DNA of 64,000 nucleotides from Fasciola hepatica (lineage: Eukaryota > Platyhelminthes > Trematoda > Plagiorchiida > Fasciolidae): the NCBI GenBank assembly GCA_948099385.1, contig CANUEZ040000164.1, forward strand, positions 2,990,501 through 3,054,500, given 5' to 3'. The notes beneath the pieces were generated by a model, which had not been told where the DNA came from, did not search any database, and worked only from the letters and a program-made list of their open reading frames with translations. Of this stretch, positions 27,178 through 58,679 are shown piece after piece; within the stretch, counting starts at the first letter, position 1; every line of letters starts with the position of its first letter. Position numbers and translations under genes: made by a program.

Positions 27178-27360
27178 GAATCTACCGTCCAGTTACCTAG
27201 AAGGCGTCAGCTAGATAAACCAATCACATGATAAGGATAACTTGACTGACAAACCCCTGCCCATGATTGGTGTTTATTCCATGTCTATGTTCATGATCTT
27301 TTGTCTAATGTCTACTATGTAATCTGTAACTGGCTTGAGAATGAATTGCTGAATAATTGT
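27154..27360 (-). repeat. Right 207-bp arm of the same inverted repeat
   Basis: Inverted partner of 26711-26917. Its outer end, GAATTGCTGAATAATTGT (27343-27360), also occurs in direct orientation at 26646-26663 and, inverted, in the outer end of the left arm. The array of three copies may mark the element boundary. Confidence 0.9.
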
Positions 27361-30060: not shown

Positions 30061-30950
30061 AGCATTATGGCACAATTTGTGAGATGGCTTCGGTCGATCC
30101 GGGGGGGCACAGATGAAAATCTTCGCAAGCTTTTCTCACGCTGAGGCCGCCACCTCCAAGCGTCACTAGTTCGGATACCTCCGTAGCAGACCAAGTCTCT
30201 ACAACAACAAAATGGGACGGTAGGACAATCATCTCTATCCATACAGTGCACTACATAAGTAACGCGGGAGAAAGCGCGTCGCGCAAATGTTGTAAACATA
30301 CCACATGAGGCGCGTAAGCATGTAAGTGACTAGGAAAAGCCACGAACAACGTGCTCAGCTCCGTCCGGTATCGAAATGTAATCCACCTGTTGTTGAAACA
30401 ACAAATGGCCACGGAGCAGACAGGACTTGGTTGAAAGCTGGGTGACTAAGTGAGCGTATCTGTGTACGTGCACACCTGTCTCTTGCGGAAGTCTCTGTCG
30501 CCGATCTCTGTTATGCTGCTGTGCTCATTGCGCCTCCATCTATTCAATTTTGATTTTTTTAGCTATTTGGGTTACTATAAACCCAAGGTAGAACATTTTC
30601 AAAGGCGCAACCCTTTCTGTCTCAATTTTGGAATGACTCGATCGTCGTATTGCGTGGCTGTAGTATACCATGCAAGTTGTTCATCTCGAAGATATCATTT
30701 TCAACCCTCTTGCAAACTCGCTTATTGCTCTTTACTGTGAATACAATCTGATTATTTGGTTTCATCCAAGCACGGCCCTATAGCTGACCCATATTCTCAG
30801 CTGACCATTACTGGGCGCTTCCTACAGTAAGACCTTTGCGATATGGAGGCCAAGCTTCATGATCCCGAACACAATGACTATCCATCAGCATTTGACTGCT
30901 CTTGCCAACATGTCCCGACCATGTAGTCTGCCATAACTAAACTTGGGTTA
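30061..30950. other. No gene seen
   Basis: Short frames without recognised motifs. Possible remains of the mariner N-terminus reach to about 30300 on the minus strand. Confidence 0.35.
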
Positions 30951-31065
30951 GGTTGTGTGTTTCCTATCCGGCCATCCAGCAGTTTATCAGTCCCGCAGCA
31001 TACATCACAGAGCAGTGCGTTCGTGCTCAGTTACTGATGCAACCACCCACTTCTGTCTGTTCCCT

Positions 31066-31414
31066 TCAACTTTTCCACCCAGGGTCGGCCATCGTCCGTT
31101 CGGGTGATGTAGTGCTACTAGTTTCGGAGGCCTTGCCACGTGGCCGGTGGCCGATAGGAGTCATCGAAAGCATCTCAGTTTCGGACGATGGTTTGGTGCG
31201 AACGGCAACAGTGCGAACTAATGAAGGATTAGTGCTCCGTGACATTAGAAAGATTTGTCTTATTGAGGGCGAACCGGACAGTGGTGATGTAAGTTCAGAG
31301 GCCAAATCTCCTCAAGTGGGAGGCGGGTCTTCGGATCTGCCGAACCGGGAGAGACCACTGAGAGTTGATCCACTTGTCCGACCGGGAGCTGCTATTGACA
31401 GTGATACGTTTTAG
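31066..31414 (+). pseudogene. BEL/Pao C-terminal DUF5641 domain fragment
   Basis: The open frame encodes SGDVVLLVSEALPRGRWPIG, then VIESISVSDDGLVRTATVRT, then LVLRDIRKICLIEGEPDS. The order 'G.vVL....lPRG.WP.G.i......DG.vR...v.t..g...R...kl.Lle' is the DUF5641 tail found after the integrase of BEL/Pao retrotransposons. It is intact over this short length and ends at a TAG-like stop at 31412-31414 after a Pro/Arg-rich extension. No integrase is upstream, so it is an isolated relic. A second, clearly linked DUF5641 lies at 56400-56583. Confidence 0.68.
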
Positions 31415-31924
31415 GTATTGGGGAACCGTAGGGCGAGCCGATGCATGAGGCCGACCACACCTAGCAGTGCACAGGAAAATCCAGGTCGGATTTTGGTGGC
31501 CGATGTAAAGGAGTTCAGGAAACCCTGTTCCATGCATTAGCATTCATATTACAAACGACATTTATCATTCGTATGAACAACCTTTGCTGGAATTTCGATT
31601 GTTTGTTTTATTTCTCTAAATCTTTGTCACAAATCGGACTCCTACAGTTGCCTCGAGCGAGAGTCACTCAGCTTGAATTTCGTTGTGACTGTATTTGGTA
31701 ATCTCATCTTCTGTATCTAACCTTTTGCCGTAACCCAGCTGCAGTTGTTGATTTGTTGTCCAATTTGGAGCGAAAGAGCCCAGAAGGAACACTATTGACA
31801 TTTGATTATTGTGAAATTAATTGATTTGTTGTATATAGTACCGTAGCTATTTGGAATCGACTTTGTTTTGAATTGTGTCGAAATTGGTTGCTACGCGTCG
31901 CTCGAACCTTCCGGTGGCTGGACT

Positions 31925-32140
31925 TTACAAAGGGACTGTCACTGTATTTTGCCCGTTTCGCGAAACTTAAATTTCTTCACTCCGTGAATAATTCTGTACT
32001 CACTGATAGTGCACTGATGAATGCTTTTTGACCCATTCGAGAACTACACATCCCATTAGTAATGTATGAACCTTATCGAGATCAGATTTGTAGCCCAAAT
32101 GGTCCGTGGCTATGGCGCAATTTTGCATCTTGTGACAAGG
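31925..32140 (+). repeat. Interspersed repeat, copy related in inverse to 42060-42300
   Basis: The segment from GGGACTGTCACTG to GCGCAATTTTGCATC matches the reverse complement of about 42065-42300 throughout, with scattered differences. It contains no gene. The copies flank, at a distance, the CR1-like LINE and the large palindrome. Confidence 0.7.
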
Positions 32141-32264
32141 TCAGAAATGGGTAAACGGCACTGTGCTGACTGGATCCTGAATAATGTCAATGCCCCCCAC
32201 CCTTGATATAACCACTTGCTCAGACGAGGTTACTTTCCCCATCAGGTAACGTGATTCCCCTTCT

Positions 32265-33223
32265 GTGGCCAATGTCTCATTCCTCAGTCTGGACGAAAAG
32301 GTCCTTCAAAATGCGCTGGCTAAGGATGCACCAAAATGTGCAGTCCAGGGTCAGGCTGTAGAGATAGCTGAGAGAAGGGCCTTTGTCCGCACCCTTAAGG
32401 ACGAGCTGACCAGCCTAAGGAGTTTGGTTATCAAATCCCTCCCGGTGTCCCAGGCAGCCGATCACGCGTGTAGAATGTCTGTGCAGCAAATTCTTGATGC
32501 CGCCAAGATTTTACAAGACACCGAGAATTGCTCCAAGCGTGTCATCCTTTGGGGTCGCTTTCTCAACACGGATCACCCTGATGTCACCTACGCCAAGGTG
32601 CTTAACCGCCTTAAGCTCCCTTTTCCACTTAAAGGTCGGTCCTCCTGGTTGGTAACCAAACGCACCAGCCGGGTACACGGTATTCTCATTGAAATGGGCC
32701 CCACAGATTCACCAAACGAATTGTTTCCTCGGCCGAAAAGCTCAAGGAGGAAATTAAAGGGCTCGAGGGAGTATCCGTTGATAAGCCACTTCATCTAAGG
32801 CTCCTTAGTGAGAAGGCTAAGCCAGAAATTCCACAAAAAGCCGATCATAAGCTCAGAGTGCTGCCAGTCGTCCAGGTAACTCGCCTTGAGGATCGAGCTG
32901 CATGCCCACCACCCGTCGCTTCCCTACTCACTCCATCTCCCGTCGCGGAGAGTACTCCCAGCGGTAAGCCTAGTGCCAATAAACATCAGACGCCTGCGAA
33001 AGGTATCCCAGACACCAACATAGCTAATAAGACTATATCAGCGGACAAGACTCACTCATCCTTGAGCCCAGACATAAACCTGCAACCAGTTTCTGCTGAA
33101 AGCTGCAGTGAGAAGGTTATAGCACCAGGAAATGTATCTGGAGCCGTCGTGCAAAACAAGCTCACCAAAACGAAAACTCAGAACAGGACATCACGCAGTG
33201 CGCAGAAAGGCAAACCGCAATAA
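32265..33223 (+). pseudogene. CR1-like LINE ORF1 (one frameshift)
   Basis: ORF1 proteins of CR1-type LINEs bind the element RNA. The first piece (32265-32702) has an N-terminal segment with helical, charged sequence (AERRAFVRTLKDELTSLRSL), a VILWGRFLN block that fits the beta strand of an RNA-recognition-like fold, and AKVLNRLKLPF. A single frameshift near 32702 leads into FTKRIVSSAEKLKEEIK and a long Pro/Ser/Lys-rich tail ending KTKTQNRTSRSAQKGKPQ. The stop lies at 33221-33223. The open frame of ORF2 extends back over this end, so the two may overlap. I am fairly sure of the element, less of the exact ORF1 subtype. Confidence 0.65.
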
Positions 33224-36200
33224 GCAGCCCACCCTTTTCGGAGACCGAAGGATGTAGACCGTCCACCTGGATTGATACCCCCCAGGTTACTAGACATCAA
33301 AACCTACCGGTCCCCCCAGTAGTCTGCTCACCCTCTAGCCCCCCAATATCTTCAGCCCCCGACTCTCCCAGGACCTCCTTTCCATCCTCAAATCCCCCTC
33401 TTTCCCCCTCCTCATACCCAAAACAAGCTGCATCGGGCGACTCTGCAACAACTGCTGAGCATGTGCTCAAGTGTTTTTACAGCAATTGCCTGAGTGTGTT
33501 GAATAAGATCCCGGAGCTTCGGCAGCTCGCAGTGGATAAGGAGCCTCAGATCATAGCCCTCACAGAAACCTGGCTCATCCCTGACATACTTGATGCCGAA
33601 ATATCCATTCCGGGATACTTCACAGTAAGGCAGGACTCCAGTAGAGGTCGTGCCGGCGGGGTCATCATATACTACGATAATTCGATCCCTCCTCCCACCT
33701 CACTGACAACCCCAACCTTTTCATGTATTGATTGTTTGTGGGCTGTGTTTACACTCTCTAGGACAGACACCCTACTGCTTGGTGTAGTCTATCGTCCTCC
33801 CGCATGCAATTCAGCTGGTAGCCTAGGTCTCATAGACTTATTAGGCTCCCTGAAAAGCTATACAGACTTCACCCATCTGTTAGTCACTGGTGACTTCAAC
33901 TCACCCAGTACAGACTGGCAAAGAGCTGATGCCTCTGATATCATCTTTGGTAAACCCCTCCTAGATCTCGTACTCAAGAACTCATGGGCGCAGAAAGTAA
34001 GAGATCCGACCAGATATCGCACAGGACACGCCCCGTCCCCACTGGACCTGGTCATCACCAATGATCGGTTCCTAATAGATGTGATGCATTACTTGCCGCC
34101 CCTCGGCAAAAGTGATCACATTCTCATTGGATTCGATTATATCGTGAAATGGCCTCCTCTTCCGTCAGAAACTAAAATTTTGAGATCCTTTAAAAGGACC
34201 AACTTTGACCAAGTCTGTGCATTTCTTCGCTCCCAGCTAAATTTAACTAACCCAGGTAACTCTGTGGATGAAATGGCAGAGAATCTCAGAGAGTTAATCT
34301 CCTTAGCTGATAGGCTATTTGTCCCCAGAATCTGTCATCCACAGACCGCTAAGCGGCCCCTCCCTCGCGCCATTAGGCGCATTCTAGACGAAAGCGCGCG
34401 CCCCTTTGCTAGATATAAAGCCACAGGCCTTGCCCGTGATGCAGAAGATTTCAGGATTATACGGAACATATGCAAAGACAAGATTAGGTCCTATCAGAAT
34501 GCACTCCAATGATCTGTGCTTGATCGAGCGCGGACCATTAAGGCATTTTTCTTTCAACACATGTGCCGTCTAAGGAGCACAGCTCCGACACCGCTGGTTC
34601 CCATAGATAGTGCTGGATCTCCAATCACTTCCCTTAGCCAAGTAGCCGAGGCATTCAGCTCCTACTTTCGTACAATTTTTAGCTCCATACCCATATCCTC
34701 CCACCCTAACATGAACCCGATATCCCTGGTTACTACCCTTAACCGCGTCACTATTCCCATTGGTGAAATCGCTCAAGGTTTCCGACGGCTCAATCAGTAT
34801 TACTCCATTGGTCTGGACATAATCCACCCCCGTATTCTCAAGGAAGCCGCGGGCACATTAGATGCTCCTTATGCCTCGCTTTTTCAGCGATGTGTTGACG
34901 ATGGAGTTTTCCCCAGTAGCTGGAAAAAAAGCAGTGATCGCACCCATCTATAAGAAGGGTAGTAAACATCTTGCTTCTAGTTACAGAACCATAATTCTCA
35001 CTAACATCACCACCAAGAGGTTTGAGAGAATTCTCAAGAGTGGGGTTCTTTCACATCTGCGTAGAAATGAGGTCATCTCCCCGTCCCAACATGGGTTTCT
35101 TCCTAGCGGATCATGCATCACCAATATGCTTACTGTCATGGATAGTCTAACGAAAGCCTATGATGATGACCAGCTCTCACACGCTGTATTCATCGATTTT
35201 GCCAAGGCCTTCGATAAGGTCCCCCTGCCCCTCTTTTTTATAAACTTCGGACATACGAGATCACAGGCTCCATGTTTGCCACCCTACGCAGCTCCCTTAC
35301 CGACCGCACCTTCGTGGTTAAAGCCGGGAAGTCTCAACCCTCCACAGTAACAACTGGGGTCTCCCAGGGGTCGGTCTTAGGTCCTCTTCTTTTCTTGATC
35401 TACATGAACGATCTTCCGACAACCCTTTCTGCGAACAATGCCATGTACGCAGACGATATAACCCTATGGATTTGAAGCTTTGATGACCTGCAGTTTGCAG
35501 TTGATGAAACAAAGCGCTGGTCCGACGACTGGAATCTCCCAGTTATTGATGACAAATGCGTGAGCATGTATCTGGGCGGAGAGACTGGTCACACGTTTTC
35601 CAATAACAGAGCAAGCACACTGCCAAGGGTTGACCGACACAAGGTGCCCGGCTTCTGGCTAGATTGTAACTTGTCCTTCTCTAATCATCACCAACTTGCG
35701 AGCAAGTCTGCCTTTCGAGTCCTAAACATGATTCGAAGGCCCTTCCCGCGCATATCTAGGGGTGATTTCCCCATAATTTTTGGGCACGTATATCCGATCT
35801 CTGCTGGAGTACGGTAGTCAGATTGTGCACTCTGGTTTTTTTAGTGACCGTGAGATCCTAGAAACAGTCCAGAGGGCTTCCATCAAAGCAGTAAGGGGTC
35901 AATCCCACCTACCTTATGCCGTCCCCCCCTTACTCCTCAGCCTCCATATCCTTGAAATAAGACGGGTAAGAGGTGATCTGTTTTTGATGTTTCACCCTCT
36001 TTAATCAGGTTAAAGCGATTGCTTCTTCTCCGTCTTTCCAGCCTCTTCTCACCGTGGTCACAGCAGAAAGGTTTTCAAACCGAGGCCACGCGCTTCCCTA
36101 GGGATAAAAGTCTTTAGCTACAAGGTTATTACCCTGTGGAATGCAATTCCGAAAGATATTGTTCTCTCACAGAACAAAATAATCTTCACGAAGAGGCTAG

Positions 36201-36228
36201 ATATCTACCTGGGTATTTCCGAATAATT
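33190..36228 (+). pseudogene. CR1-like LINE ORF2: endonuclease and reverse transcriptase
   Basis: Nearly full length. The endonuclease (33463-34512) keeps all expected APE motifs: YSNCLSVLNK (Asn), IALTETWL (Glu), LLGVVYRPP, LLVTGDFNSP (Asp and Asn), SPLDLVITN and GKSDHILI (Ser-Asp-His). The RT follows in pieces: VIAPIYKKGSKH, LSHLRRNEVISPSQHGFLPSGSC, AVFIDFAKAFDKVP, TTGVSQGSVLGPLLFLIYMNDLP and MYADDITLWI with an intact YADD. It ends LWNAIPKDIVLSQN near 36135-36180 and ISE* near 36228. Breaks are a TGA at 34510, frameshifts near 34900, 35225, 35785 and 36000 and a TGA at 35473. Few lesions and intact catalytic motifs suggest a fairly young copy. It acts with ORF1 by target-primed reverse transcription. 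Confidence 0.78.
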
Positions 36229-36505
36229 CCCTGTAAAAAAGCTTAATAGATGTCTTTTATTGCATATACGTCCATGAACGTTGCAACAATATTTCGCTTA
36301 GGGTGATGTCCACAGTGAGACGCTGCATGATGTTATATGAAATTTGTTTTCGCTGCCAACCCCGCCTCCCCAAACATTGCGCTTAGTTTTACTCCAGTTT
36401 CAGCTCCGTGAGATCGACAGTAGATCAAAGATTTCCTCGAGAACAAGGACAATAGGGCACAAAACCTAGAGCCCGTGCAGTAACTCAAGAAGAAAACTAG
36501 ACTCA
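36229..36505. other. 3' flank of the LINE up to the palindrome
   Basis: Short non-coding stretch with AT-rich 3' tail sequence of the LINE and then unique-looking DNA. No terminal tandem tail is obvious. Confidence 0.4.
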
Positions 36506-38838
36506 GCTTGGTCGCGGACACTGCTCTGTCGATCTAACTGCGGGCTATCTTAAACAGCTGACCAAAAAGGTTCCATGAAGTATTCCTAATTGTTGTGCAG
36601 TCTTGCTGTGCGTCGTTCACAGAACAACCATAAAAACTTTCCTTATCAGCCTCTGACAGTGGTAGATGATGTACGGCGGCTTTTCTCCCGGCTCGATCAC
36701 CTTGGCACCCATAGTTTTCATACTCTGACAAACTTGCAGAATTGCAATGAGCATCCGTCAAAGGTGGTAGACTTTACTCTGGAAAGGATGAACGACGGTT
36801 AAACTGGGACAGTCTGCCTGACGAGTGGCCTGTAAACTCATTCCTAATGACGTGTGCAGCTACAGTGCACTTTGCTCGTTTGTTAATCATTTTATCCGAA
36901 ATCATACTGCTAGCGTGCTAGCCACTTGACCGTTGCCCATGCATACTACGCGCATACTTTTGCAATATACGTCAGCCTTTCTCTACCCATCTATGGTGTT
37001 CTATTTCTAATGAGTTTTGGGAAACACCGCACCGTTGATCGTGGTAGCGTAGTGCGGAGTACCACTGTGACAAACGGGTTATCCACGAGTAATACGAAGA
37101 ATTATCCAACGCGCATAGTAAGAAAACAGCTTGGTACTGTCTACACGAACTTGCACGTGGTTTGTTATGTACACCATTTCCAATAACTCGCTGATCTAGC
37201 CCCTTCTGCGCGCCTTTACTCTTTGGCTTCTGAGCCTGTCGTTTTTCGGAAAATGCCCGTCGTCCCAATCCTGATAACCCCAACTTAAGCATATCGGCAT
37301 TCTTCCAATCAACAGCATCCTCAGTAATATATGAACTTGCATTGGCTTTGTTCCTGTATTCCCACTCAACAGAGGTCAGATTTGGTCGCGTTGATATCCA
37401 CCCTTTGCCCCTTCAAATGCGAATTTTGTGGATTTCTGTATATCGCCGACTACGTCTGTGGTTTGGATAGTCCCTCGGTGCAGCTCTCCTTTATTGTACC
37501 GACGTTCCAATGTGACCAACAATGAGAACGCTTTCGAAACATATATCGCCGCGCAATACTGCAGGGATGAGCCGATCATCCCCATCTTTCACTCGTTTGG
37601 CTGCTTGTTTTGTGCATAGGGCGACCGCTGGCGCTACTTTCAACACTTCCTCGGCACAAGCTAGCGTGCGGTATCTGTACTGAGGCCCAGTGGGAACACA
37701 CGCGGTTAGCACTCTACGGTCTTTTCTCGTTGACCCTCTCGACAAAAGCGATCGTAGAAGCTGAGGGAGTGTCCCCTCCCGTAATACAAAACCCTTCAGA
37801 CCGGCACAATCTTGCTTTCTGATCAAACGTGCCCTGGAATTACCTCAACCAGATCTAATTGCATCCAACAAACCCTCTTAAAAGCTTCCGCGATGCCATT
37901 CGGCATTAGTTTCGTTACCACTTCGACCGATCCAGCAGGCCACTTTCAGGCTGAAACGAACACATTGACCGGTAGATAGTGCTACCGATACAGCACACGA
38001 TAACGAAGACCAACAATTTCGTTTGTTTGAACAATTACCGTATTTGGTGGCGCCACTTTCTCCGCCTGTGTACATCATCTGCACGCCGTTGCGCCCCTCC
38101 AATATGCACGTTGTCCCGCTCCGGCGTTTTGAGTTCTGCTCCTTTGCGCGCTGCCGAATATATTCGTTAGCGTGTCACAAATCGAGGACCAGGGGCTATA
38201 GACTCTATACGGGAGCAGGTCCCGACTTAACTTAGGAGAATCCTTAACTGGTGAGCTCAAACAACGAGTTCATTCCACCAAGGACACTCGTAAGTCCTTG
38301 AGTCATATTTATTCACTTACACATATACTTTTCCCGACATACAAACGGTATATCCCGATTTCTTCTACCGTATTCCCTTCATATTTTCCTCATATCGATA
38401 CCGTAAGCGTTTCACGGTTGCTGAATTGATCCCTTTATATAGTTTTACATTTGATGCACCATTTCAATTATGGCTAGTAACGACCGCAAATCTGATCCAG
38501 CACCGTCCGTTTTGACAGTCTCCCTAGCCGACCCTGAGTCTTTATTGCTTACTCGCACCACTGGTTTCATACGTCGGAGGCAGAGTTTGAACCAGATAAA
38601 CTCACGAACGAGCGTACCCGTTACTTGTGGATTATCGGTCGCCTTCCCCGTGACGTTGCTGCCCAGATAGGCGACCTATCATTCAGTAACAATTCTCACA
38701 CAGCCGTGGAAGATGCGGTAATCTCATGTCTTTTCCACCAGAATAGTCCAGACTGGAATGGCTGGTCCAAGTGACAGGGTCAGATAGCAAGAAGCCTCCT
38801 GCACTATTGAGAGAAATGCAGCAGCTGGCAGGGCAACT
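36506..38838 (+). repeat. Left arm (2,333 bp) of a near-perfect giant palindrome
   Basis: Each base x here pairs with base 78562-x in 39724-42056. The register stays constant over the whole arm, so there are no indels. I found only two mismatches where I compared bases directly (38709/39853 and 38784/39778). Beyond 36506 and beyond 38838 pairing stops at once. The inner 370 bp encode Gypsy gag. The outer 1.9 kb holds several short frames on both strands, for example the reverse of 40736-41071, that I do not recognise. Confidence 0.95.
38249..38838 (+). pseudogene. Gypsy primer-binding site and gag N-terminal remnant inside the left arm
   Basis: TGGTGAGCTCAAACAACG at 38249-38266 sits like a primer-binding site just before the coding start (ATGGCTAGTAACGACCGC at 38470). 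Read across two frameshifts, the peptide gives LWIIGRLPRDVAAQIGDL (about 38630-38680), the known Gypsy capsid '..GRLP.D.A..I.dL' motif, then PPALLREMQQLAGQ near 38792-38834. The frame then runs directly into integrase-type sequence in the central spacer, so nucleocapsid, protease, RT and RNase H are deleted. Confidence 0.65.
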
Positions 38839-39723
38839 TTTAGAGAAAAAAGACGATTCACTACCCATGAGCATGAATCTAGAAACGATCGCCACAGCCC
38901 AAACAACAGATTCTGAGATCGAGCAACTCGTAAACATCAAACATGGGCATCTAGTTCCAGTGACCCTTCCGACCTCGGAGGTAGCCGTCATTTGCGATGT
39001 TTCACATGGTAGACTCCGACCACTAGTTCTTGCCAGTTTTTGCCGAAAAGTTTCAGCAGTCCCCACAACTTATCGAACCCTGATGTGACCACCTCAGTAA
39101 AACTAGTAACCGAGCGATACGTCTGACCATGCGTCCAACTCTACGTACGTTTTTGGGTCTGCCCCTGTTTTCGATGCCAGCGCGGTAAAATACATCGTCA
39201 CACTAAATCTGCGTTATGCATATTCCCCGAGCCGGATGCAAGCTTTCATCAAATGCATCTGGATCTTGATGGGCCCGTTCTGCCATCCAACGGTTGCGTC
39301 TACATCCACACTTGCGTAGATCGTTCCACTCGTTTGCCACAGGCCATACCTATTCCTCGTCCTACCTCAGAGGAAGCTGCAATAGCATTTCTAACTGGTT
39401 GGGTGAGTCAATTCGGTTGTCCTGCTATCGTGACCATTGAATGCGGTTCTCATTTTGACGGCGCCTACCACAAGCTACTGAAAGCTTTTAGTTGCGGTCT
39501 AAAATCCCGCTCGAAAGCAGCTATCCGAGTGTCCTCGGAGTGTGTTTCTACGGTGCGAGTGGCGATCTGGGGGCTGCTAGAATTTGTTACGTCAGTAATT
39601 CGTGGATGGCACTGTTAGTTTTGACGCTTTCGTGAGCTTAGAAAAACTGGAAACTTCGAGCACTGCTTGCCTATACTGCGTGGTAGTCGCTAGGTACACA
39701 CATCAAGGACGCTGTCCTCTAGG
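38839..39723 (+). pseudogene. Palindrome centre: Gypsy integrase remnant
   Basis: Only this 885-bp part is single copy. The plus strand reads LETIATAQTTDSEIEQL, LPTSEVAVICDVSHGRLRPLV, then the zinc-binding region with KLVTERYV, a TGA where Trp should be, and CFRCQRGKIHRHTKS. The catalytic core follows: HLDLDGPVLPSNGCVYIHTCVDRSTRLPQAIPIP, of which the first Asp is present, and AIVTIECGSHFDG, where the family has VTTDRG, so the second catalytic Asp is Glu. The core decays after about 39500. It is the same element as the gag in the left arm. Confidence 0.72.
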
Positions 39724-42056
39724 AGTTGCCCTGCCAGCTGCTGCATTTCTCTCAATAGTGCAGGAGGCTTCTTGCTACCTGACCCTGTCACTTGGACCAG
39801 CCATTCCAGTCTGGACTATTCTGGTGGAAAAGACATGAGATTACCGCATCTTTCACGGCTGTGTGAGAATTGTTACTGAATGATAGGTCGCCTATCTGGG
39901 CAGCAACGTCACGGGGAAGGCGACCGATAATCCACAAGTAACGGGTACGCTCGTTCGTGAGTTTATCTGGTTCAAACTCTGCCTCCGACGTATGAAACCA
40001 GTGGTGCGAGTAAGCAATAAAGACTCAGGGTCGGCTAGGGAGACTGTCAAAACGGACGGTGCTGGATCAGATTTGCGGTCGTTACTAGCCATAATTGAAA
40101 TGGTGCATCAAATGTAAAACTATATAAAGGGATCAATTCAGCAACCGTGAAACGCTTACGGTATCGATATGAGGAAAATATGAAGGGAATACGGTAGAAG
40201 AAATCGGGATATACCGTTTGTATGTCGGGAAAAGTATATGTGTAAGTGAATAAATATGACTCAAGGACTTACGAGTGTCCTTGGTGGAATGAACTCGTTG
40301 TTTGAGCTCACCAGTTAAGGATTCTCCTAAGTTAAGTCGGGACCTGCTCCCGTATAGAGTCTATAGCCCCTGGTCCTCGATTTGTGACACGCTAACGAAT
40401 ATATTCGGCAGCGCGCAAAGGAGCAGAACTCAAAACGCCGGAGCGGGACAACGTGCATATTGGAGGGGCGCAACGGCGTGCAGATGATGTACACAGGCGG
40501 AGAAAGTGGCGCCACCAAATACGGTAATTGTTCAAACAAACGAAATTGTTGGTCTTCGTTATCGTGTGCTGTATCGGTAGCACTATCTACCGGTCAATGT
40601 GTTCGTTTCAGCCTGAAAGTGGCCTGCTGGATCGGTCGAAGTGGTAACGAAACTAATGCCGAATGGCATCGCGGAAGCTTTTAAGAGGGTTTGTTGGATG
40701 CAATTAGATCTGGTTGAGGTAATTCCAGGGCACGTTTGATCAGAAAGCAAGATTGTGCCGGTCTGAAGGGTTTTGTATTACGGGAGGGGACACTCCCTCA
40801 GCTTCTACGATCGCTTTTGTCGAGAGGGTCAACGAGAAAAGACCGTAGAGTGCTAACCGCGTGTGTTCCCACTGGGCCTCAGTACAGATACCGCACGCTA
40901 GCTTGTGCCGAGGAAGTGTTGAAAGTAGCGCCAGCGGTCGCCCTATGCACAAAACAAGCAGCCAAACGAGTGAAAGATGGGGATGATCGGCTCATCCCTG
41001 CAGTATTGCGCGGCGATATATGTTTCGAAAGCGTTCTCATTGTTGGTCACATTGGAACGTCGGTACAATAAAGGAGAGCTGCACCGAGGGACTATCCAAA
41101 CCACAGACGTAGTCGGCGATATACAGAAATCCACAAAATTCGCATTTGAAGGGGCAAAGGGTGGATATCAACGCGACCAAATCTGACCTCTGTTGAGTGG
41201 GAATACAGGAACAAAGCCAATGCAAGTTCATATATTACTGAGGATGCTGTTGATTGGAAGAATGCCGATATGCTTAAGTTGGGGTTATCAGGATTGGGAC
41301 GACGGGCATTTTCCGAAAAACGACAGGCTCAGAAGCCAAAGAGTAAAGGCGCGCAGAAGGGGCTAGATCAGCGAGTTATTGGAAATGGTGTACATAACAA
41401 ACCACGTGCAAGTTCGTGTAGACAGTACCAAGCTGTTTTCTTACTATGCGCGTTGGATAATTCTTCGTATTACTCGTGGATAACCCGTTTGTCACAGTGG
41501 TACTCCGCACTACGCTACCACGATCAACGGTGCGGTGTTTCCCAAAACTCATTAGAAATAGAACACCATAGATGGGTAGAGAAAGGCTGACGTATATTGC
41601 AAAAGTATGCGCGTAGTATGCATGGGCAACGGTCAAGTGGCTAGCACGCTAGCAGTATGATTTCGGATAAAATGATTAACAAACGAGCAAAGTGCACTGT
41701 AGCTGCACACGTCATTAGGAATGAGTTTACAGGCCACTCGTCAGGCAGACTGTCCCAGTTTAACCGTCGTTCATCCTTTCCAGAGTAAAGTCTACCACCT
41801 TTGACGGATGCTCATTGCAATTCTGCAAGTTTGTCAGAGTATGAAAACTATGGGTGCCAAGGTGATCGAGCCGGGAGAAAAGCCGCCGTACATCATCTAC
41901 CACTGTCAGAGGCTGATAAGGAAAGTTTTTATGGTTGTTCTGTGAACGACGCACAGCAAGACTGCACAACAATTAGGAATACTTCATGGAACCTTTTTGG
42001 TCAGCTGTTTAAGATAGCCCGCAGTTAGATCGACAGAGCAGTGTCCGCGACCAAGC
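39724..42056 (-). repeat. Right arm (2,333 bp) of the giant palindrome
   Basis: Inverted copy of 36506-38838. Its first 370 bp are the Gypsy gag remnant in antisense (39724-40092). Plus-strand frames here (40460-40684, 40736-41071, 41270-41590) form an almost continuous but interrupted reading, including RVLTACVPTGPQYRYRTLAC and NAEWHRGSF, with no family that I recognise. The junction on the right (CCAAGC|AAACTTCC) differs from that on the left. Confidence 0.95.
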
Positions 42057-42059
42057 AAA

Positions 42060-42300
42060 CTTCCATTGCCTTTCACGCCTTGTCCGACCTTTTCTCAAAA
42101 TACAATACTGCGCCATAGCCACGGACCATTTGAGCTTTAGTTCTGATGTCGATAAGGTTCATACATTACTAATGGGATATGTGTATTTCTCGAATGGGTC
42201 AAGGAGCATTCGTCGGTGCACTATCAGTGAGTACAGAATTATTCACGGAGTGAAGAAATTTGAGTTTCGCGAAACGGGCAAAACACAGTGACAGTCCCTT
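42060..42300 (-). repeat. Interspersed repeat, inverse copy of 31925-32140
   Basis: It starts four bases beyond the palindrome. The reverse complement aligns with 31925-32140 along its length (shared blocks include CATTCGAGAA, TCCCATTAGTAATG and GCGAAAC). No gene. Confidence 0.7.
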
Positions 42301-43955
42301 GATAGCAGTATTGAGAAGTGTTAGAATTCTTTAAAAAGACTGAAATGTGTGTGTCAGATACAGCTCGAGGTGGGTCAATAATATACTGGCCAGGCTGTTG
42401 GACGTCTTATTGTTATCCAGATAATTCAAGTGTTGGTGTCTGTAGATACACTTGGTGAGCCTCGGCTCATGGGTTTTTTCTGCCTTTTGTGCTTTTGCAG
42501 GTTGAACACGTGCAACCCTCAGGCGGAAGAACACCGGTCCTTGCACGGTTCAACGAAAAGGCAAAGGTCAGAACTTTATAAATAAAACAGCGGAGGACAC
42601 GGATAAAGAATGCTGCAAAGGGTAAGAACGAGCAAGCACGGATGATAAAATACGATCGGAAAGTTAACAGATGAATAATATGCGGGAATCATATGCGGCA
42701 AAAGATGAAAAGGCGCAGTCTTATCGGGACTCGGGAATGCTGATGAGAATCGGCGTAATGGAATTGCAGGTGTGAAGTATGAGAAAACACGGATCAAAAT
42801 ATATGAGACTTACTACTGATTGGTGATGGAAGCGTCGGAGAGGGAAACCGAGTCATTGCCGGTAAAATATATGATGAATATGGTGGCATATGCTGTGAGT
42901 GAATATTTTACACTGCCCCCGGAGGATTGGTTGGAGCTTTTCCTGTCTCGATCGAAGGGGTTAGTATTGATAAGGAAAATAGCACAAACAGACAATGGCC
43001 GACCCTGGGTGGAAAAGATGAAGGGGACAGACAGACTTGTGCCCTGACCTCCAAATTTACCGGGAGCAGACTTCAGTCCATCCCAGGTTCACTTAACTTC
43101 CCACCATTGCCCCCTGGTGTGCAAGCATTTGTCTCTCTCTAACCTCCCCTCTCCTTTTTCCTACCCCCCTTTTTCTTCCGTATTTCTAAATTTTTCTTGA
43201 GTTTGGCTGTCAGCTTTGTCGCTGGTAAAAAGTTTGATCATGCGTTTGGCATGCTTTGGGCGTCTCCGAAATAAGCTATTATCATTGGTTGAGTGAAGCT
43301 GAGGAGACATGGAACTGTGGTGATTTTTGTGGGAAGTCCCACCACCGGCCTTTACACCGAGTCAGGTCTTGTCAACCATTCTAAGCTCGAAGCACCGAGT
43401 AAAATGCTTTACTAATGCCGGATACCTCTTCGGAGTCTCAAAGCAACGAGCAGCCCGAAACTATTCGGAGCCCAAATGAGAAACACGATAGTTCTGCCAA
43501 TTCTACGGCGCCATTATTGATTAAAAATCTAAGTACATAACGGTGGCACTTTTGTGTTGAGCCTCAGCTACTATCCAGCCGAAAAGATAGCCGGGATAGG
43601 ACAAAGCTCCGTACGAAGAGAACGGTCGACCAAAAACAGTAGACTGGGAGAACCTGTCCCGTAACGCAAAACAAATAAAATAACTTTTTAACGGTAAATC
43701 AGGCCCAATTAACCTTGTTGTGGTCGTGGCAGCCGAAAAGCAATGCAAACGATTTGAAAAACACGATGGGTCAACTTATGCCAAAGAGTAGAACCGGAAA
43801 GTAATAAAACAAAACCATCTTCAGTCGATGCGACACAGTATCGTCCCAACAGTCCGCTGTTTAAGTCCAGTAAGAAGCTTCGACTATGGATAGAAATTCT
43901 GGGTGCTCGAAGCTTAGATTATTCAACAACCACAAGCTGTGTCATCATGAATACG
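42301..43955. other. No gene recognised; purine-rich segment at 42560-43060
   Basis: Frames at 42331-42546 (minus) and 42820-43047 (plus) have no motif that I know. The plus strand from 42560 to 43060 is rich in A and G, that is, the minus strand is pyrimidine-rich in the same manner as 58680-62860. Whether they are the same repeat family needs alignment. Confidence 0.35.
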
Positions 43956-44212
43956 GTTGAAGAAAGCCGTCCAAAATCGGTCCAAAATTGTATGAGGGTA
44001 AGCTTATGTGGACTGCCTACATCAACATGCATATTGCAGTCACCGAGGGGTCCTATTCAATATTCGAGGGAATAGCTGCCTAGGAAGACAGCGCTGTCAA
44101 TCAAGAAAGGGAGGTCTGTGACTCGAATAAAAAGTCAGTCTTTAGCAGCTGGGGTCACCAAAGACAGGATTACTTTGCTACGGGATGTTAGATGCGAGTG
44201 AATCTTCAAGTT
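43956..44212 (+). repeat. Left copy of a 257-bp inverted repeat enclosing a BEL/Pao element
   Basis: Base x pairs with 93598-x in 49386-49642, checked at both ends and in the middle (GCAGCTGGGGTCACC versus GGTGACCCCAGCTGC). A few mismatches are present. It carries no recognised gene, although the right copy has a minus-strand open frame (49523-49738) running through it. Confidence 0.88.
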
Positions 44213-45302
44213 CAAAGGGAGATGAGATGAGGTGTGGATGATCCTACTGTAAAATCGATTCTTGATTTGGCTGTTGTGCATAGCAAAAGACAATAAGATC
44301 ATGTAGCGGGTGCAGGGGCTTTCTGCAGGATGGCTTGTCTCTCCGCTGGGGCTCGGTTATGAGCTGAGGCACGAGAGTCTGAGTCTGTGCCGGCTGTAAC
44401 ACTGATAGAATCCGGTAACTGGATAGAAGCTTTCAAATTACTGAAAGGAATATTTGACCCCAGTGAAGGAGCAGGCCACTATTGATGGAAGGTGTAACGC
44501 TGTATTCCAAGAAAGTGGCCTTAAGTTCCCGGAGGAGAAAGTAAGGGCTCGAATGATAGTAAGCTCTCTCTCCATCAGAGTGAGGGAATACTGGAATAGA
44601 CCACTAAAAGCAGCGGCGGAAGTGGCTACTGTGAAAGACTTCGAGGAAAGGCCTTGTGGAAAATGCCACATAGTGTTTACCGACAGAGTGTACTGAGTGG
44701 ACCCAGTTTCTTTTAGTCCCTTCCACTTACCTCATTCTCCTCTTCGAAAGCACCACCTTTTCACATATGATCTTTCAGCCTAAAGTAACTTCTTGTAAAG
44801 CATGGCCCCCACGGATGGGTGGCCAACAGCTGCAAGCAGCCGGCAACGAGGACCTTGTACGCCCTTCGGGCTGGTGCACAGTGGCCGGAGGTCCTTCAAC
44901 TCAGTTTTCGATTCTGTTCCAGGACTTGACGGCGGGATGCCTAAATGTCTGGATTATTGCAGTGATGGACTCATTGGATCCGTCGGTATTTCGAAATTTA
45001 CGAGAGAAAGTCTTTCTAAATACTTGGCTACAATCAGAGAAGATTCAGTGTAGAAATCCAAACTCCTTTCTCTTCAACAACATTATCAATCACAGCCGGT
45101 AGACACACAGCCCATGGTCAGTAAACCTGTTGCTAAGGAAAATTCCGTGAGCGGCAGCTGGTAATAGACAACGGATTTAGGAGAAAAAAAAGTGAAAGGA
45201 CTAGTCACCCTTCTAACCGAAACGGCAGTTTAAAGTCCCGGTCAGACGTTGCCAAGATGAATAATCCGCACTCCCAGTCTATCTACCCCATTCCAGCAAG
45301 AC
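44213..45302. other. No gene recognised between inverted repeat and LTR-like repeat
   Basis: Frames of 77-111 codons exist (44454-44696, 44767-45102), without recognised motifs. An ESGNWIEAFKLLKGIFDP stretch near 44410-44460 looks gag-like but is too weak to call. Confidence 0.3.
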
Positions 45303-45605
45303 GTAGCCATTTCAGACGAATCCCAAAACCAACACAAGATTAATTCGTAGTTTCTACTGTACTAGGTTAAACTTCACAAAAATTACAAACAAATGCAAAC
45401 CTGAAATATGCGGCCAAGTAGATTCAACAGTGAAATCCGAAGGTTCAAACTCCTATGGCTCTAGCACCAAGGCCAGAAACGGTTCGAGGCCAAACTCAAA
45501 TGTTTCACACGAATAAACAAACGTACAAAAGTTTTGGTGTGTGGACGAGCGTTTCTAAAAAGTGTAAAATATAGTCTTATTAGCAAAGCACGTGGGACAT
45601 CTGGA
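45303..45605 (-). repeat. LTR-like direct repeat, likely 3' LTR of the minus-strand BEL/Pao element
   Basis: 303 bp, same orientation as 49033-49335 at a constant offset of 3730. Three differences fall within the first 25 bp; the rest appeared identical when read side by side. On the minus strand the sequence has TGTCCCACGTGC near its start and TATATTTTA about 25 bases later, a possible TATA element. Such high identity implies a recent insertion or gene conversion. Confidence 0.75.
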
Positions 45606-46400
45606 GAGATTTTTGATATTTGTCCTTCACACCGCCGGCCGTAATCCTTTCGCAGAAATAGTTGTCTGAGGTTCAATATGGGATCATGATTCTCACCCCA
45701 CCTCCTTTTAACTTATTGCCTGTGCACGCGATTACTAATTTCCCGTGTTGGCTTTGCGTAAAACGGGTTTTTGTTATGGCCATCATTTGCACAATCCATA
45801 AGGAATCACTTCCGAATCCAGCTACAAATCTTGATATTGGCATTTTCAGCAGAAGACCGACGCACTAAGTTAGAGGTTCAGCCAGAGCAAAGGCTTTCAA
45901 GAGAAAAACTTCTTGCTGCACGAGCTGAGTCTGCGTATCTCAAGTAGTAAACTGTTGCAGCAACTGAACAAACTAAGTCAGTTTGCAATCTTGCACACAG
46001 AAGTTGAAGGTAAATGCAACTTTCAGGTGGCAGTGAGATATCGCGTAGAATTGAAAGGTCAGTAAGCTGTGGAATCATATAAATTACCACCGAGTCTTCT
46101 GAAAGAGATGAGAAACGGTTTTTGAATATGAACCGGCTTCGGAACTGAGTGTAGGACGGACAGATTTAAAACACGTGAACACGGAGCTTGACCAAATACT
46201 GACACTCAACAGAGTATCTTCGTTTTTGTGTACAAGATGTGTGAATAAGTGTTCTTCACCTAAGACGGGAATAGTTTCACAGCGTGTTTTCGACTAACAA
46301 GTCTCACTTGAACTGTTCAAGTGAAACCTTAATGCTTTTTTTCTTTTCACCACAGTGCACATTGCATAAAAAATGGGATTCGGCACATTTTGCAACTGTT
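45606..46400. other. Interior of the BEL/Pao element without recognisable coding
   Basis: On the minus strand this should hold the end of pol, but I see no integrase, RNase H or DUF5641 motif. Most of pol is therefore deleted or replaced. Confidence 0.4.
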
Positions 46401-46839
46401 CAAGAAAAATGGGTCGAGTTGAATAGTTGTGGGGTACGAAATGGGACAAAGCACAGAATTACTCGGAGCGGGGCAGCCAACAGAGTACTTTGTCCTTTGT
46501 ATGGAGTTTTGGGCTCAAATTATCGGCATTTTCATTGCTGTTCTCCGCTGGGAGTGAATGAACTCTCTGATATTTCGAACAAGCTGTTTGTTTCATACTT
46601 TCCCTGTAATTTCACACAGCTGTAGGATCTCCTCAATATGCGAAGCTCAGTTTGACAGTGGTGAATTTATCTTTGAGCATTGTTACTACCCTAAAACCCA
46701 ATAACATCGTAGTCATTTTGAGGCCAGTCATGGATACTGACTTCGGTTCAGTAACCGTCGCTTTGACAAAGGGTAATTCGTTTTGCCGTCGGCCTTGCAG
46801 CTCCACCGAGGTATTGTTCACCGCCACTAAGTCGGCCAA
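46400..46839 (-). repeat. Repeat unit with an open frame, inverse homologue of 50165-50570
   Basis: The minus-strand peptide VELQGRRQNELPFVKATVTE and the plus-strand peptide at 50230-50300, IELVGQRRSIPPFVKAIITE, align through the following SMTGLKMTTMLLGFRVVTML versus LINGLKKAVLLLYLQVTSMF, and again at ENADN downstream. The conservation at protein level over a gapless stretch suggests former coding, but I do not recognise the domain. It sits where BEL/Pao RT would be expected to continue. Confidence 0.5.
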
Positions 46840-47830
46840 TTCCAGACTGCTTTGCGTGACCTACCGGTGTTCAGCCTTCAATTGGGCTTCCCTGAAAGGT
46901 CCATTTTTAAATAAATCAATCGCCCTTGCACCATTTTTCCATTTCATGACAGCTGGTTTGACGGTGGTTGCTTGAGTAGAGCAACTTTGTGTCGCCCATT
47001 GTGAAGTTTTGTCCTCGATTTCACAATTGAAAGCACCGACCGGTCTTCGTTTGAGTGAATTTCATCTTCCTGAGATAGACCATTGGATTCAGTGTCAAAA
47101 ATTTGGTTGTGTCCTACACGGGCAGTTTGCTCTGCAACCGCCGAGCAATTTAGTGATGCCAATTGTTGAACTTCGTTCGTTATGGGCCCGAGAAGTGTCC
47201 AGCCAAGTATCGCTAGTGTAGCGAATGGTTCCTTTCGGTAGCCTATTCTCTGTTCAAGCACTCAATGAGCCTCTAGTACAGTGCACCCAATTGGCATATC
47301 AACTTGGGTGCTAGACACTTCTTCGAACACTATATCCTCGAGAAGAGGCCATCTCTTGGCGGTTCATCCAATAGAGTCGACTGGCCTCCTTGGTAAGCTG
47401 CCTGTTGCAATGGCCCCCGGAATGTCTGCGGTCACTTTATCGGGTAAAGATATCATTTGCAAGGTCAGCCTCACCAAACTGTTACCATGACTCCCTGCAA
47501 TCCTGCACATAGTGAGTGAAGTGGGCTCGCCGACTGGTTCACAGCGTTCCATAAGCTAGCGCGTGACCAGCGAAGTATCCAACCAAGTGTCCAAAATTTC
47601 CATGACCCACCTCAATCCTTTGGTTGTTACGATGCCGACAAATACGACGCCCAATCTCGCCAGGTGAAATCATCACTTCCGGCTGGGCAGATAATTTTTA
47701 GTTCATCCGGCTGATAAGTTCATTATTTTGAGGGCCATGTGGTAAGGGGCGATCATCACCCACGCATCATTTCTGGTCACATTCCACTCTGAAGTACATC
47801 TGGAAGCTGAATGATAATTGTTCAAGCACA
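46840..47830 (-). pseudogene. BEL/Pao protease end and start of reverse transcriptase, minus strand
   Basis: On the minus strand the frame 46944-47261 reads LEQRIGYRKEPFATLAILGWTLLGPI, the linker between the retropepsin and RT that is diagnostic of BEL/Pao, then SVLSIVKSRTKLHNGRHKVALL, the beginning of the RT ('..im..s.k..nGhy...lp'). Upstream (47265-47560) there are broken frames with a weak protease-like ADIPGAIA block. Multiple stops separate the pieces. The RT palm and YxDD motif are absent from the window at this locus, so the copy is defective. Confidence 0.65.
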
Positions 47831-48500
47831 TATACTATGAGCCCACCCTTCTCACTGTGGACCACAGATTAGACACGCTGGTTCCAAAGAAGCACGAACA
47901 ATCTGGTAACAGATGCATTGAGCTACATAGCTTGCATCCAGTTGACCTCTCGGGCCCTCGACTTATCGTGTGCATTTTGGCCAAAGACCGGATTCGGTTA
48001 CGGTCGTTTTCTAAAATTTTAACCAACGTTGATTTCGTTTGCACCAGCTTGTCACCCTGGCTTACCACTTGTTCAAATCGGCTGCAGGCAAAGCTGGAAT
48101 AATGGCCTATGAACTCCGCCAAGACATCGAAAGTGGATTCTTGCCCGGGCATATTTATTTTCCCGGCTTCTTCTGGCCATGTGCTGAAATAAATCAATGG
48201 GCATACATCGGACATTGCATTTCCTTGTGTGCAAATTAATCGAATCAGACTGGTATTCTAAAAGCTTCAGAGCTATACTGAAAGTGCGCATTTTTATCAC
48301 CAAGCTTGATAGTAATTCAGCGTTGCCCTCAGCTTTCCCTGCCCCCAACGAAACACCATCAATCAAGCTTCCGGCCACTTCGAATTATTGTTTGAACAAA
48401 TCAATATGGGTCCTGCGTGCTCTGATATACCCAATGGCTGAATCAAGCATTGCATGTAATTCGATGGCATTTTTGGCCAGCCCACGACATTAACGCCATA
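47831..48500 (-). pseudogene. BEL/Pao gag, minus strand
   Basis: The minus-strand frame 47835-48215 ends CKLCSSMHLLPDCSCFFGTSVSNLWSTVRR. This is the BEL/Pao gag CCHC region ('C..C...H.L..C..F......R...v....'). Upstream pieces (48073-48378) read LLEYQSDSINLHTRKC and similar. These are consistent with the preceding gag helices but are in other frames. It lies between the two LTR-like repeats in the right order for an element read on the minus strand. Confidence 0.58.
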
Positions 48501-49032
48501 AATACAAAACATCTGCCCAGTATCTGCAACTTTGCGCTCAAAAAAAATTCCAATTTATCCTTGAATATGTAGTGCTCCTCGGGATACCCGTCACAAGGGG
48601 CTAGCTCCACTTTTGGCAGGTAGAATGCTCAAATCCCGGTGGTTTTAGGCAGTCTCAAGGGTCAATGGTCCTCCAAAAACATCGCCCTTTCGATGCTGAC
48701 ATCCTACTAACACTCCGATGCCAAATCCTTGCTTTAGAAGCTTTGTTTCCTTTCTAGTTACCCGCAGCTGGTTCTCTAATTCCATCCCTCTAATTCTGTG
48801 TACTAATATCTTCAAACTCATCACGGCTAGAAATATAATAACTTGCATAGGCAGAACAAGTAGACCAAGGTTTATCCAGAGAATCAGTAACACCTAAACC
48901 ATCACCAGAGAATCGTCCAGTAATTCACTTTTTCTAAGAAGGCCTTTGTTTCGTCTTCCGCGCACTTCCGATGAGCGCTTTGTCCAGGTTCCACCTGAGG
49001 CAGTAACGAAGTTCCCGCGAATCGAACAGAAA
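48501..49032 (-). other. 5' leader region of the minus-strand BEL/Pao element
   Basis: The open frame 48645-48893 on the minus strand begins with a hydrophobic run (LLILWINLGLLVLPMQVIIFL) followed by a charged segment. It could be a chance frame or an unusual leader. I see no clear primer-binding site after the LTR end. Confidence 0.3.
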
Positions 49033-49335
49033 GTAGCCATTTCAAACAAATCTCAAAACCAACACAAGATTAATTCGTAGTTTCTACTGTACTAGGTTAA
49101 ACTTCACAAAAATTACAAACAAATGCAAACCTGAAATATGCGGCCAAGTAGATTCAACAGTGAAATCCGAAGGTTCAAACTCCTATGGCTCTAGCACCAA
49201 GGCCAGAAACGGTTCGAGGCCAAACTCAAATGTTTCACACGAATAAACAAACGTACAAAAGTTTTGGTGTGTGGACGAGCGTTTCTAAAAAGTGTAAAAT
49301 ATAGTCTTATTAGCAAAGCACGTGGGACATCTGGA
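49033..49335 (-). repeat. LTR-like direct repeat, likely 5' LTR of the minus-strand BEL/Pao element
   Basis: Partner of 45303-45605. The flanking bases on both sides differ from those of the partner, as expected for LTR boundaries, but no target-site duplication was found by eye. Confidence 0.75.
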
Positions 49336-49385
49336 AAGAATTTTCATGATTGTACTTCTCCTGCACCTTATTTGGTCTTCATTTT

Positions 49386-49642
49386 TACTTGAAGATTTAC
49401 TCGCACCTAACATCCCGTAGCAAAGTAATCCTGTCTTTGGTGACCCCAGCTGCTAAAGACTGACTCTTTATTCGAGTCACAGACCTCCCTTTCTTGATTG
49501 ACAGCGCTGTCTTCCTAGGCAGCTATTCCCTCGAATATTGAATAGGACCCCTCGGTGACTGCAATATGCATGTTGATGTAGGCAGTCCACATAAGCTTAC
49601 CCTCATACAATTTTTGACTGATTTTGGACGGCTTTCTTCAAC
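49386..49642 (-). repeat. Right copy of the 257-bp inverted repeat
   Basis: Inverted partner of 43956-44212. It begins 50 bp after the 5' LTR-like repeat. Confidence 0.88.
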
Positions 49643-50164
49643 TGTATTCTTGGTGACACCGTTTTTGGTAGACAAGCGTTCTTCTAGAAATGGTGTCATT
49701 ACACCAACATTTCGTCCGAATAAGTATCTGGTCACCATGCCTATATACTAGTTGAGTTTAATGTGCCGGAGACCCATTAGATGCTCGAGCGGAGTATCGG
49801 CAACCTGAGGGAACCATTCAATACGCAAACGACACCTGACTGACCACTTCTTGCACGAAAAATGAACGAAGTCCAACAGTCGTCACCAGTTAACTGCTTG
49901 GTGGTAATGAGAGAGGTGTCTACATTCAGCTCAACCAGCTTTCCCATATGACACTCATCGGCCCATCTCAGGAAGATGTTTACTCAAAGGAAGATCAACC
50001 AATGCTCTCAAGGGTGAATTTAAAGACGCAACATCTTGACAAATGACACGAAGTTGCTATATCCAATCGACCACCGCCAAATCGCCTACCAAATTTGAGA
50101 ATCGGTCCGAAAGTATTTGTCATATCTCAAAAAGATACCCTCTTCAAAAACTCAATTGAAACTT
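49643..50164. other. No gene seen
   Basis: Only short frames and no recognised motif. Confidence 0.35.
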
Positions 50165-50570
50165 GAGATCAGCAGCCCGTGCAACGCAATATGTATATGA
50201 CCGACCGAGTGGCAACGTGCAGTACCTGGATAGAACTGGTTGGCCAGCGGCGCAGCATACCACCTTTCGTCAAGGCAATAATTACCGAGCTGCAGTCGGT
50301 GCTCATAAATGGGCTCAAAAAGGCCGTATTATTATTATATCTTCAAGTAACCTCAATGTTCAAGGGAGACTTTGCCGTATTCGGGGTGAAATTTGCACAT
50401 CTTGCGTCACATCACAGGAATTGGATGGAACGGAGGGCATTTTCGAAACTCCTTGGAGCTCTGTCTATTCGTAGGGGATGTAATAATGAAAATGCTGATA
50501 ATTCGAGGTCGGGACTATGTAGAAAGAGACGTAGTGTTTGCGGGCCGCCCTGCGCTGACTGATTAGGCGG
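50165..50570 (+). repeat. Repeat unit with an open frame, inverse homologue of 46400-46839
   Basis: The 127-codon frame 50179-50562 aligns with the minus-strand frame at 46633-46839 and beyond. It ends in a Cys-containing RKRRSVCGPPCAD. No known domain is recognised. Confidence 0.5.
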
Positions 50571-51520: not shown

Positions 51521-51529
51521 TGTGAGACT

Positions 51530-52535: not shown

Positions 52536-52574
52536 ATACTCGCGTGATCAACTTGGAACGAGAAAATACACAAC

Positions 52575-57514: not shown

Positions 57515-57613
57515 CTCGGTCCACTAATTGATCACTTTGTTCGTTGCGGTTGTCTAGTCCTTTCGTGAACCTGTTTAGTTTTTAGACCACCATGAGACCT
57601 CCTGTTCTTCTTT

Positions 57614-58622: not shown

Positions 58623-58632
58623 CTATACATCA

Positions 58633-58660: not shown

Positions 58661-58679
58661 ACCTTGGGTATGCTCCACT

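Follow-up and report, generated by a model that had tools for sequence, protein, structure and literature searches.

Results

Organisation of the locus

The window (the whole stretch of Fasciola hepatica DNA analysed here, 64,000 nucleotides) contains a large inverted repeat made of transposon remains: two near-identical arms enclose fragments of a Gypsy element, and the left arm is interrupted at its outer end by a LINE (Table 1). A near-perfect palindrome of 2,333 bp, with constant register, two mismatches and no indel, had been reported in the first-pass annotation and was reproduced by direct comparison, a repeat finder and BLAST. Positions x and y of the arms pair as x+y=78562 throughout, no indels are present, and the 2 mismatches in 2333 positions fall at x=38709 and x=38784. 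The repeat finder returned a single pair, 36506-38845/39717-42056 (2340 nt), and BLAST gave 99.83% identity of the arms over 2340. Chance origin of this pairing is out of question. DNA folding of the palindrome centre merely restated the palindrome.

Table 1 Features of the inverted repeat and its surroundings (positions of the window)
Feature	Position	Strand	Remarks
Left-arm outer continuation, far side of LINE	31930..32163	-	88% to 42064-42300, inverted
LINE inserted in left arm, frames broken; endonuclease, reverse transcriptase	32164..36490	+	Exo_endo_phos, RVT_1
15-bp interval from LINE 3' end to arm	36491..36505	+	may be LINE tail or target-site remnant
Left copy, near-identical tract	36506..38838	+	2333 bp; paired with 39724-42056
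Decayed gag-like sequence, outer arm, outward-running	36506..37345	-	mirrored at 41217-42056 (+); BEL/Pao-like is our own label
Gypsy 5' LTR, approximate ends set by eye	37975..38247	+	mirrored at ~40315-40587 (-)
Left Gypsy gag, frameshifted, ending at deletion junction J1	38471..38850	+	DUF7041 38538-38771
Tract inner edge	38839..38850	+	arms differ at 5/12 positions, two of them safe
Left Gypsy integrase part, deletion-joined to gag (J1)	38852..39495	+	rve, below its cut-off
Right Gypsy gag, missing from left copy	39497..39723	-	meets integrase at J2 (39495/39497)
Right copy, near-identical tract	39724..42056	-	direct comparison, repeat finder, BLAST
Right-arm outer continuation, uninterrupted (empty-site state)	42064..42300	+	alignment to 31930-32163
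Possible further outer piece	42987..43035	+	pairs with 31052-31100, 49 bp, 92%

The arm bounds 36506 and 42056 proposed earlier hold for the near-identical tract but not for the homology, which resumes beyond the LINE in the outer continuations. The accompanying statement that every other repeat in the window is much older was too strong, as BLAST found other pairs at 94-98%: two inverted, of 203 bp (98%, 26715-26917/27154-27356) and 306 bp (94%, 43929-44234/49364-49669), and one direct, of 326 bp (97%, 45303-45628/49033-49358).

Gypsy remnants and the remaining arm sequence

Gypsy sequence does not reach into the outer 1.47 kb of either arm; the element begins with its LTR at 37975-37977, and both arms carry one identical Gypsy/host junction. 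The LTR sequence is found again downstream of integrase in three dispersed copies (L009, L011, L012). Left gag is collinear with six dispersed copies up to 38850-38852, and right gag with all six to 39497-39499 (in L004 as two pieces), so that about 220 bp of gag lost from the left Gypsy are kept by the right one. The integrase part is 80-82% identical to L009, L011 and L012, and L010 has no match to it. Domain matches and the comparison with dispersed copies support the earlier reading of a truncated Gypsy that retains gag and integrase. The 885-bp centre, previously described as carrying integrase, is integrase on the forward strand only over 38852-39495; the remainder, 39497-39723, is antisense gag of the right Gypsy copy. 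Protein homologues were found among none of 62 candidates for the integrase piece (E<=1e-3) and none of 8 for the piece spanning J1 (E<=1), and the 2 and 9 pattern-matching stretches in viral_contigs yielded no confirmed relative.

The gag-like part of the outer arm has collinear segments in common with 52690-53225. In shuffle tests two of them were equalled in 0/200 shuffles, and the third in 30/200 when taken alone and in 0/20000 in fixed register. Pfam searches with the gag-like pieces gave a best E of 0.07, to an unrelated family. A gag-like frame running past 42056 was unsupported on checking.

The LINE and the outer continuations

The LINE is present in the left arm and absent from the right. 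Of 38 other scored copies, 36 place its 3' end at 36490 and the remaining two at 36488 and 36489; its 5' end, 32161, comes from a single copy (L040) among the eight stretches fetched; set in this way from other copies, the ends coincide with the arm break. No clear target-site duplication was found around the LINE. That 31930-32163 might be a LINE 5' UTR was ruled out, since the LINE in L040, one copy, starts at 32161.

In the 1.5-Gb genome, searched by a procedure that passes over very common words, 31930-32163 was the sole close match found for 42064-42300 (12/12 first-look candidates scored); besides the query and the left arm, nine others reach 74-80% over 76-133 bp. When 15001-36505 was compared with 42057-62000, inverted homology at E<=0.05 was confined to two matches, both of which extend the palindrome outward, and direct-orientation homology at the same threshold was absent. 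No alignment was obtained between 42300-42987 and 31100-31930. With the left flanks joined without the LINE, 408 of 444 alignment columns match the right arm, and 7 bp of the latter (42057-42063) have no left partner. A dispersed repeat at 65-78% occupies ~42133-42396 and partly overlaps the outer piece, and because part of that piece belongs to it, two independent insertions are conceivable. The LINE and the piece at 31930-32163 both contradict the idea of a native right arm with a fresh inverted insertion on the left.

Mosaic divergence between the arms

The arms differ at 18/85 positions immediately outside the tract, at 7/152 farther out (the 85/152-bp split of the outer piece was picked post hoc) and at 2/2333 inside. 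Divergence is uneven over the outer 237 bp, and comparison of outside with inside gives p=1.9e-25. Four differences fall in the inner 137 bp and none in the remaining 2203 positions (p=1.1e-5). The 12-bp inner edge, too, was delimited post hoc; three of its five differences are no more than 5 bp from J1, hence are uncertain and could be part of the join. The right arm is the odd one out at 38839 and 38840, the left-arm base occurring in 5/6 and 6/6 other copies, respectively; at 38709 it is the left arm that departs from 6/6 other copies. Identity is mosaic with abrupt tract edges, the pattern expected of arm-to-arm conversion, and the common Gypsy/host junction together with the diverged continuations marks the arms as inverted copies of one locus, probably older than their identity implies.

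Other copies in the genome

When the genome was searched for further copies of the arm, the whole arm matched only the two arms themselves (40 scored out of 6065 first-look candidates, and 40 out of 2254). Contig C71 carries a second near-perfect spaced inverted repeat; in both repeats the spacer measures 0.8-0.9 kb and the outer ends are less alike.

Discussion

A recent overwriting of one arm by the other is the probable cause of their near-identity. The history we consider likely, as read from the sequence, starts with transposon remnants duplicated long ago in inverted orientation and further comprises two central deletions, interruption by the LINE and a later overwriting of about 2.3 kb of arm by gene conversion. 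One locus, a Gypsy within decayed BEL/Pao-like sequence, would have been duplicated in inverted orientation, giving arms longer than those of today. Two deletions near the centre, J1 within the left Gypsy and J2 from left integrase to right gag, would have left a short asymmetric spacer, and the LINE would have entered the left arm some 2.3 kb away from the centre. Divergence between the arms would then have built up, until a recent non-reciprocal conversion, with either arm as template and probably through strand invasion or pairing in a hairpin followed by copy synthesis, covered some 2.3 kb between the LINE insertion and ~38838 and removed divergence within the tract, not outside it. The LINE in one arm and the central deletions serve as time marks, by which the pair is likely to be old and the identity of its arms of recent date. 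That conversion took place, and in which order the steps followed, we infer from a single sequence. The kind of process is already known; the record of its history is unusually clear here.

Assembly error, with the arms folded back or one arm overwritten by the other during consensus building or polishing, is improbable, yet it is the strongest of the rival explanations. Identity over 2.3 kb is extreme, and the same assembly contains, on C71, another inverted repeat that is near-perfect and similarly spaced. A fold-back, however, predicts identity running outward and nothing new in the centre, whereas here the flanks differ and the outer arms are 88% alike across the LINE. The roughly 220 bp of gag found in the right Gypsy only also mean that the second half is not the pure copy a simple fold-back would give. 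Polishing would be unlikely to wipe out divergence such as the 18/85 seen outside the tract, and the window contains no N.

We give a small chance to a recent inverted duplication, in which a template switch, or priming by fold-back at a break, would have made one arm from the other in place. The near-identity of the arms suits it, and so does the confinement of all differences to the inner 137 bp, which error-prone synthesis by the join could produce as well. It would nevertheless require the left copy to stop by chance 15 bp from the LINE 3' end, and the nearest genomic relative found for the right flank sits at the LINE's 5' end. As such this proposal of the first-pass annotation found no support, identity being limited to the tract, the flanks diverged and the old LINE present in the left arm only. 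Still more doubtful is a wider reading, prompted by C71, of a genome-wide population of spaced near-perfect inverted repeats of Gypsy remnants, continually re-homogenised and possibly kept as sources of double-stranded RNA silencing related elements.

The two other origins suggested at the outset fare worse. Template switching during reverse transcription of the Gypsy element would fit the internal gag-to-integrase deletion on the left and the antisense gag on the right, but it is very improbable, and its simple form is disfavoured, as the arms are not confined to the element and run ~1.47 kb past the Gypsy LTR into other sequence. No direct repeat adjoins both outer arm ends, 36506 and 42056, as a target-site duplication would (the longest common word, AAACT, is 7 bp off the left end). 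That last finding, the lack of other whole-arm copies among the scored matches and a left outer end that is a LINE junction rather than an element end make a foldback or long-terminal-inverted-repeat DNA transposon with captured Gypsy parts hardly credible, despite long inverted repeats flanking a centre.

A near-perfect inverted repeat in a draft genome is readily taken for a fresh duplication or an artefact. The conversion proposed here would provide a checkable example of the intrachromosomal kind among transposon debris, and a caution that arm identity is unsafe for dating duplications; with a further repeat of this kind on C71, it may be possible to measure how often the process occurs.

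In its components the Gypsy element resembles flatworm Ty3/Gypsy elements of the CsRn1/Saci2 type (PMC12471100; see also PMC2582038) by its LTR, gag, integrase and many dispersed copies, and differs from them in that the present copy is broken. For Caenorhabditis long inverted repeats, active maintenance has been proposed (PMC1803023). The palindromic arms of the F44E5.4 locus described there are 2207 bp long and 99.7% alike with a spacer of 126 bp. In C. briggsae, a 153-nt insertion breaks up one inverted repeat, whose arms are 81.6% alike. Those repeats involve gene pairs and were compared across species, whereas the present arms are retroelement remains in a single genome. Like the human Y palindromes (PMC3723533), the present repeat has near-identical inverted arms around a unique spacer, and the mean conversion tract given there for palindrome P6 is 2068 bp; unlike them, it has arms of only a few kb, made up of dead transposon sequence, and conversion is deduced from one sequence.

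Near-identity of the arms and its limits

The first-pass annotation described a near-perfect palindrome at this place, which was borne out by base-for-base comparison: the arms differ at 2 of 2333 positions, and two further methods concur. Outside this tract the arms continue as a piece of 88% identity, differing at 18 of 85 positions beside the LINE and at 7 of 152 farther out, with three gap positions, a division made post hoc with the data already seen. At the inner edge, positions 38846, 38848 and 38850, at most 5 bp from the deletion join J1, may be part of that join rather than arm divergence; 38839 and 38840 are safe differences, since the left arm there still tracks gag of other copies. 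Four differences lie within the inner 137 bp versus none in the remaining 2203 bp (p=1.1e-5), and divergence is higher outside the tract than inside it (p=1.9e-25), p values that are only guides because sites were taken as independent. The lack of differences over 2203 bp sets an upper bound of about 0.14% on present divergence of that stretch. Comparison with six other copies places the derived base in the right arm at 38839 and 38840 (also 38848 and 38850, if counted) and in the left arm at 38709 (also 38846, if counted); 38784 varies among the copies.

Coordinates of the palindrome, its surroundings and other repeats
Feature	Position	Remark
Left arm	36506-38838	mismatches 38709, 38784
Right arm	39724-42056	inverted
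Inner edge	38839-38850	arms unlike at 5/12 positions
Gypsy LTR start	37975-37977	LTR seen again downstream of integrase in L009, L011, L012
Left integrase	38852-39495	
J2	39495/39497	left integrase joined to gag of right Gypsy
LINE	32164-36490 (+)	
Outer piece	42064-42300 / 31930-32163	inverted, immediately outside right arm
DUF5641 match	30941-31411	E=3e-12
49-bp outer match	31052-31100	same open frame as DUF5641, near domain start
Different Gypsy-type remnant	7043-10071	H2C2 of the integrase passes its cut-off; protease and rve matches fall short of theirs
Inverted 203-bp pair	26715-27356	98%, arms 236 bp apart
Direct pair	45303-45628 / 49033-49358	97%
Inverted pair adjoining the direct pair	43929-44234 / 49364-49669	94%; together a rearranged, fairly young repeat
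C71 inverted repeat (L053-L055)	G000:C71:2741962-2751752	two 3999-bp arms, 99.95% identical, around 826 bp
C108 inverted pair (L018, L019)	G000:C108:13366912 and 13414698	separated by about 48 kb; 99.8% identity across 3094 bp or more
LINE 3'-end series	G000:C67:17377626-17390881	four matches, equal scores, spacing exactly 4308 bp; suggests a tandem array

Outer ends and the LINE

The sole close genome match of the right outer piece was its left counterpart (12 of 12 first-look candidates scored); the nine candidates besides the query and the left arm reached 74-80% over 76-133 bp, in a whole-genome search that omits very common words. When 15001-36505 was compared with 42057-62000, no inverted homology at E<=0.05 turned up other than this piece and the collinear 49-bp piece, and none in direct orientation. 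The gap from 32163 to 36506 is occupied by the LINE, whose reading frames are broken. Of 38 other copies (40 of 2065 candidates scored), 36 place its 3' end at 36490 and the remaining two a base or two before that; the 5' end, 32161, comes from one copy (L040) among eight fetched stretches, of which L036 begins later (32354), two align with different parts of the LINE and four gave no match. For the protein of this LINE, with the 7994 candidates sharing most words with it scored, 14 of 40 matches at E<=1e-10 were Clonorchis sinensis proteins (35-45% identity); the two best of the 40 were a metagenome protein without a name and a record labelled as a bacterial MAG. A flatworm source is likely. 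With the LINE omitted, 408 of 444 columns align between the left flanks and the right arm. Thus an old LINE sits in the left arm, and the site is seen uninterrupted in the right one.

The centre

In six of six dispersed Gypsy copies collinearity extends to 38850-38852 on the left and to 39497-39499 on the right (for L004 in two pieces). The integrase stretch is collinear with three of the four downstream stretches fetched (L009, L011, L012) and had no match in the fourth, L010. The left Gypsy therefore carries a gag-to-integrase deletion, J1, whose length, worked out by hand from coordinates, is about 2.2 kb by two copies and 1.5 kb by a third. The right Gypsy retains about 220 bp of gag lost from the left. 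By eye, neither J1 nor J2 has more than one or two bases of shared sequence at the join. Simple fold-back of one half cannot produce such a centre. Long inverted repeats are unstable, and the central deletions fit this behavior.

An assembly error, the main rival explanation of the near-identical arms, is unlikely, given that the outer arms are only 88% alike, the LINE is present in one arm only, the right Gypsy carries extra gag and the window contains no N. We give little chance to a fresh inverted duplication of one arm from the other: error-prone synthesis could account for all differences clustering near the join, but its ends would have to coincide, improbably, at the LINE.

Composition of the arms

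The genome (1,499,821,164 bases, 656 contigs) was searched with the whole arm. Among the best 40 of 6065 first-look candidates scored, two were the arms themselves and 38 were confined to arm positions 1471-2333 (81-85%), a Gypsy element starting with its LTR. The foldback-type element also entertained in the first-pass annotation did not hold up, as among 40 of 2254 candidates scored the outer 1455 bp were matched in full by the two arms only; two more rows were weaker (72-74%), and a 198-235-bp stretch at 37552-37788 was matched at 38 further places (79-83%). A Gypsy reverse-transcription product is highly improbable and a foldback element barely credible, both failing on arm content and copy number.

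The outermost 840 bp of the arm, on the outward strand, resemble the start of an element at 52.5 kb. Two segments stood at 0/200 shuffles. For one this held in every one of the three frames, so that the resemblance is in part one of DNA; a third segment, at the arm's edge, gave 30/200 when placed freely and 0/20000 in fixed register. At 56.4 kb this element ends in DUF5641-like sequence, and, taking DUF5641 to be typical of BEL/Pao, we label it and the outer arm BEL/Pao-like. Each arm is thus a composite of Gypsy adjoining decayed BEL/Pao-like sequence, and since the junction is identical in both, the two derive from a single locus.

Origin of the near-identity and comparison with known palindromes

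Non-reciprocal transfer between the arms is the simplest account of their near-identity: about 2.3 kb probably passed from one arm to the other, the transfer stopping at the LINE, where homology fails, and close to the central deletion. On contig C71, two of the 38 further Gypsy matches lie together, inverted and with equal scores. The repeat there contains two copies of this Gypsy family and, farther out, an additional 494-bp stretch at 97.6%, and it is like the window's in outline, near-identical inside and less alike outside. This raises the likelihood of a general process in the genome; both repeats could also reflect a recurrent assembly fault. Among known systems, the F44E5.4 locus of C. 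elegans has palindromic arms of 2207 bp with 99.7% identity, and in C. briggsae a case broken by an insertion has arms at 81.6% (PMC1803023); the human P6 palindrome has a mean conversion tract of 2068 bp, with a maximum above 9 kb (PMC3723533), a mean to be set beside the roughly 2.3-kb transfer proposed here.
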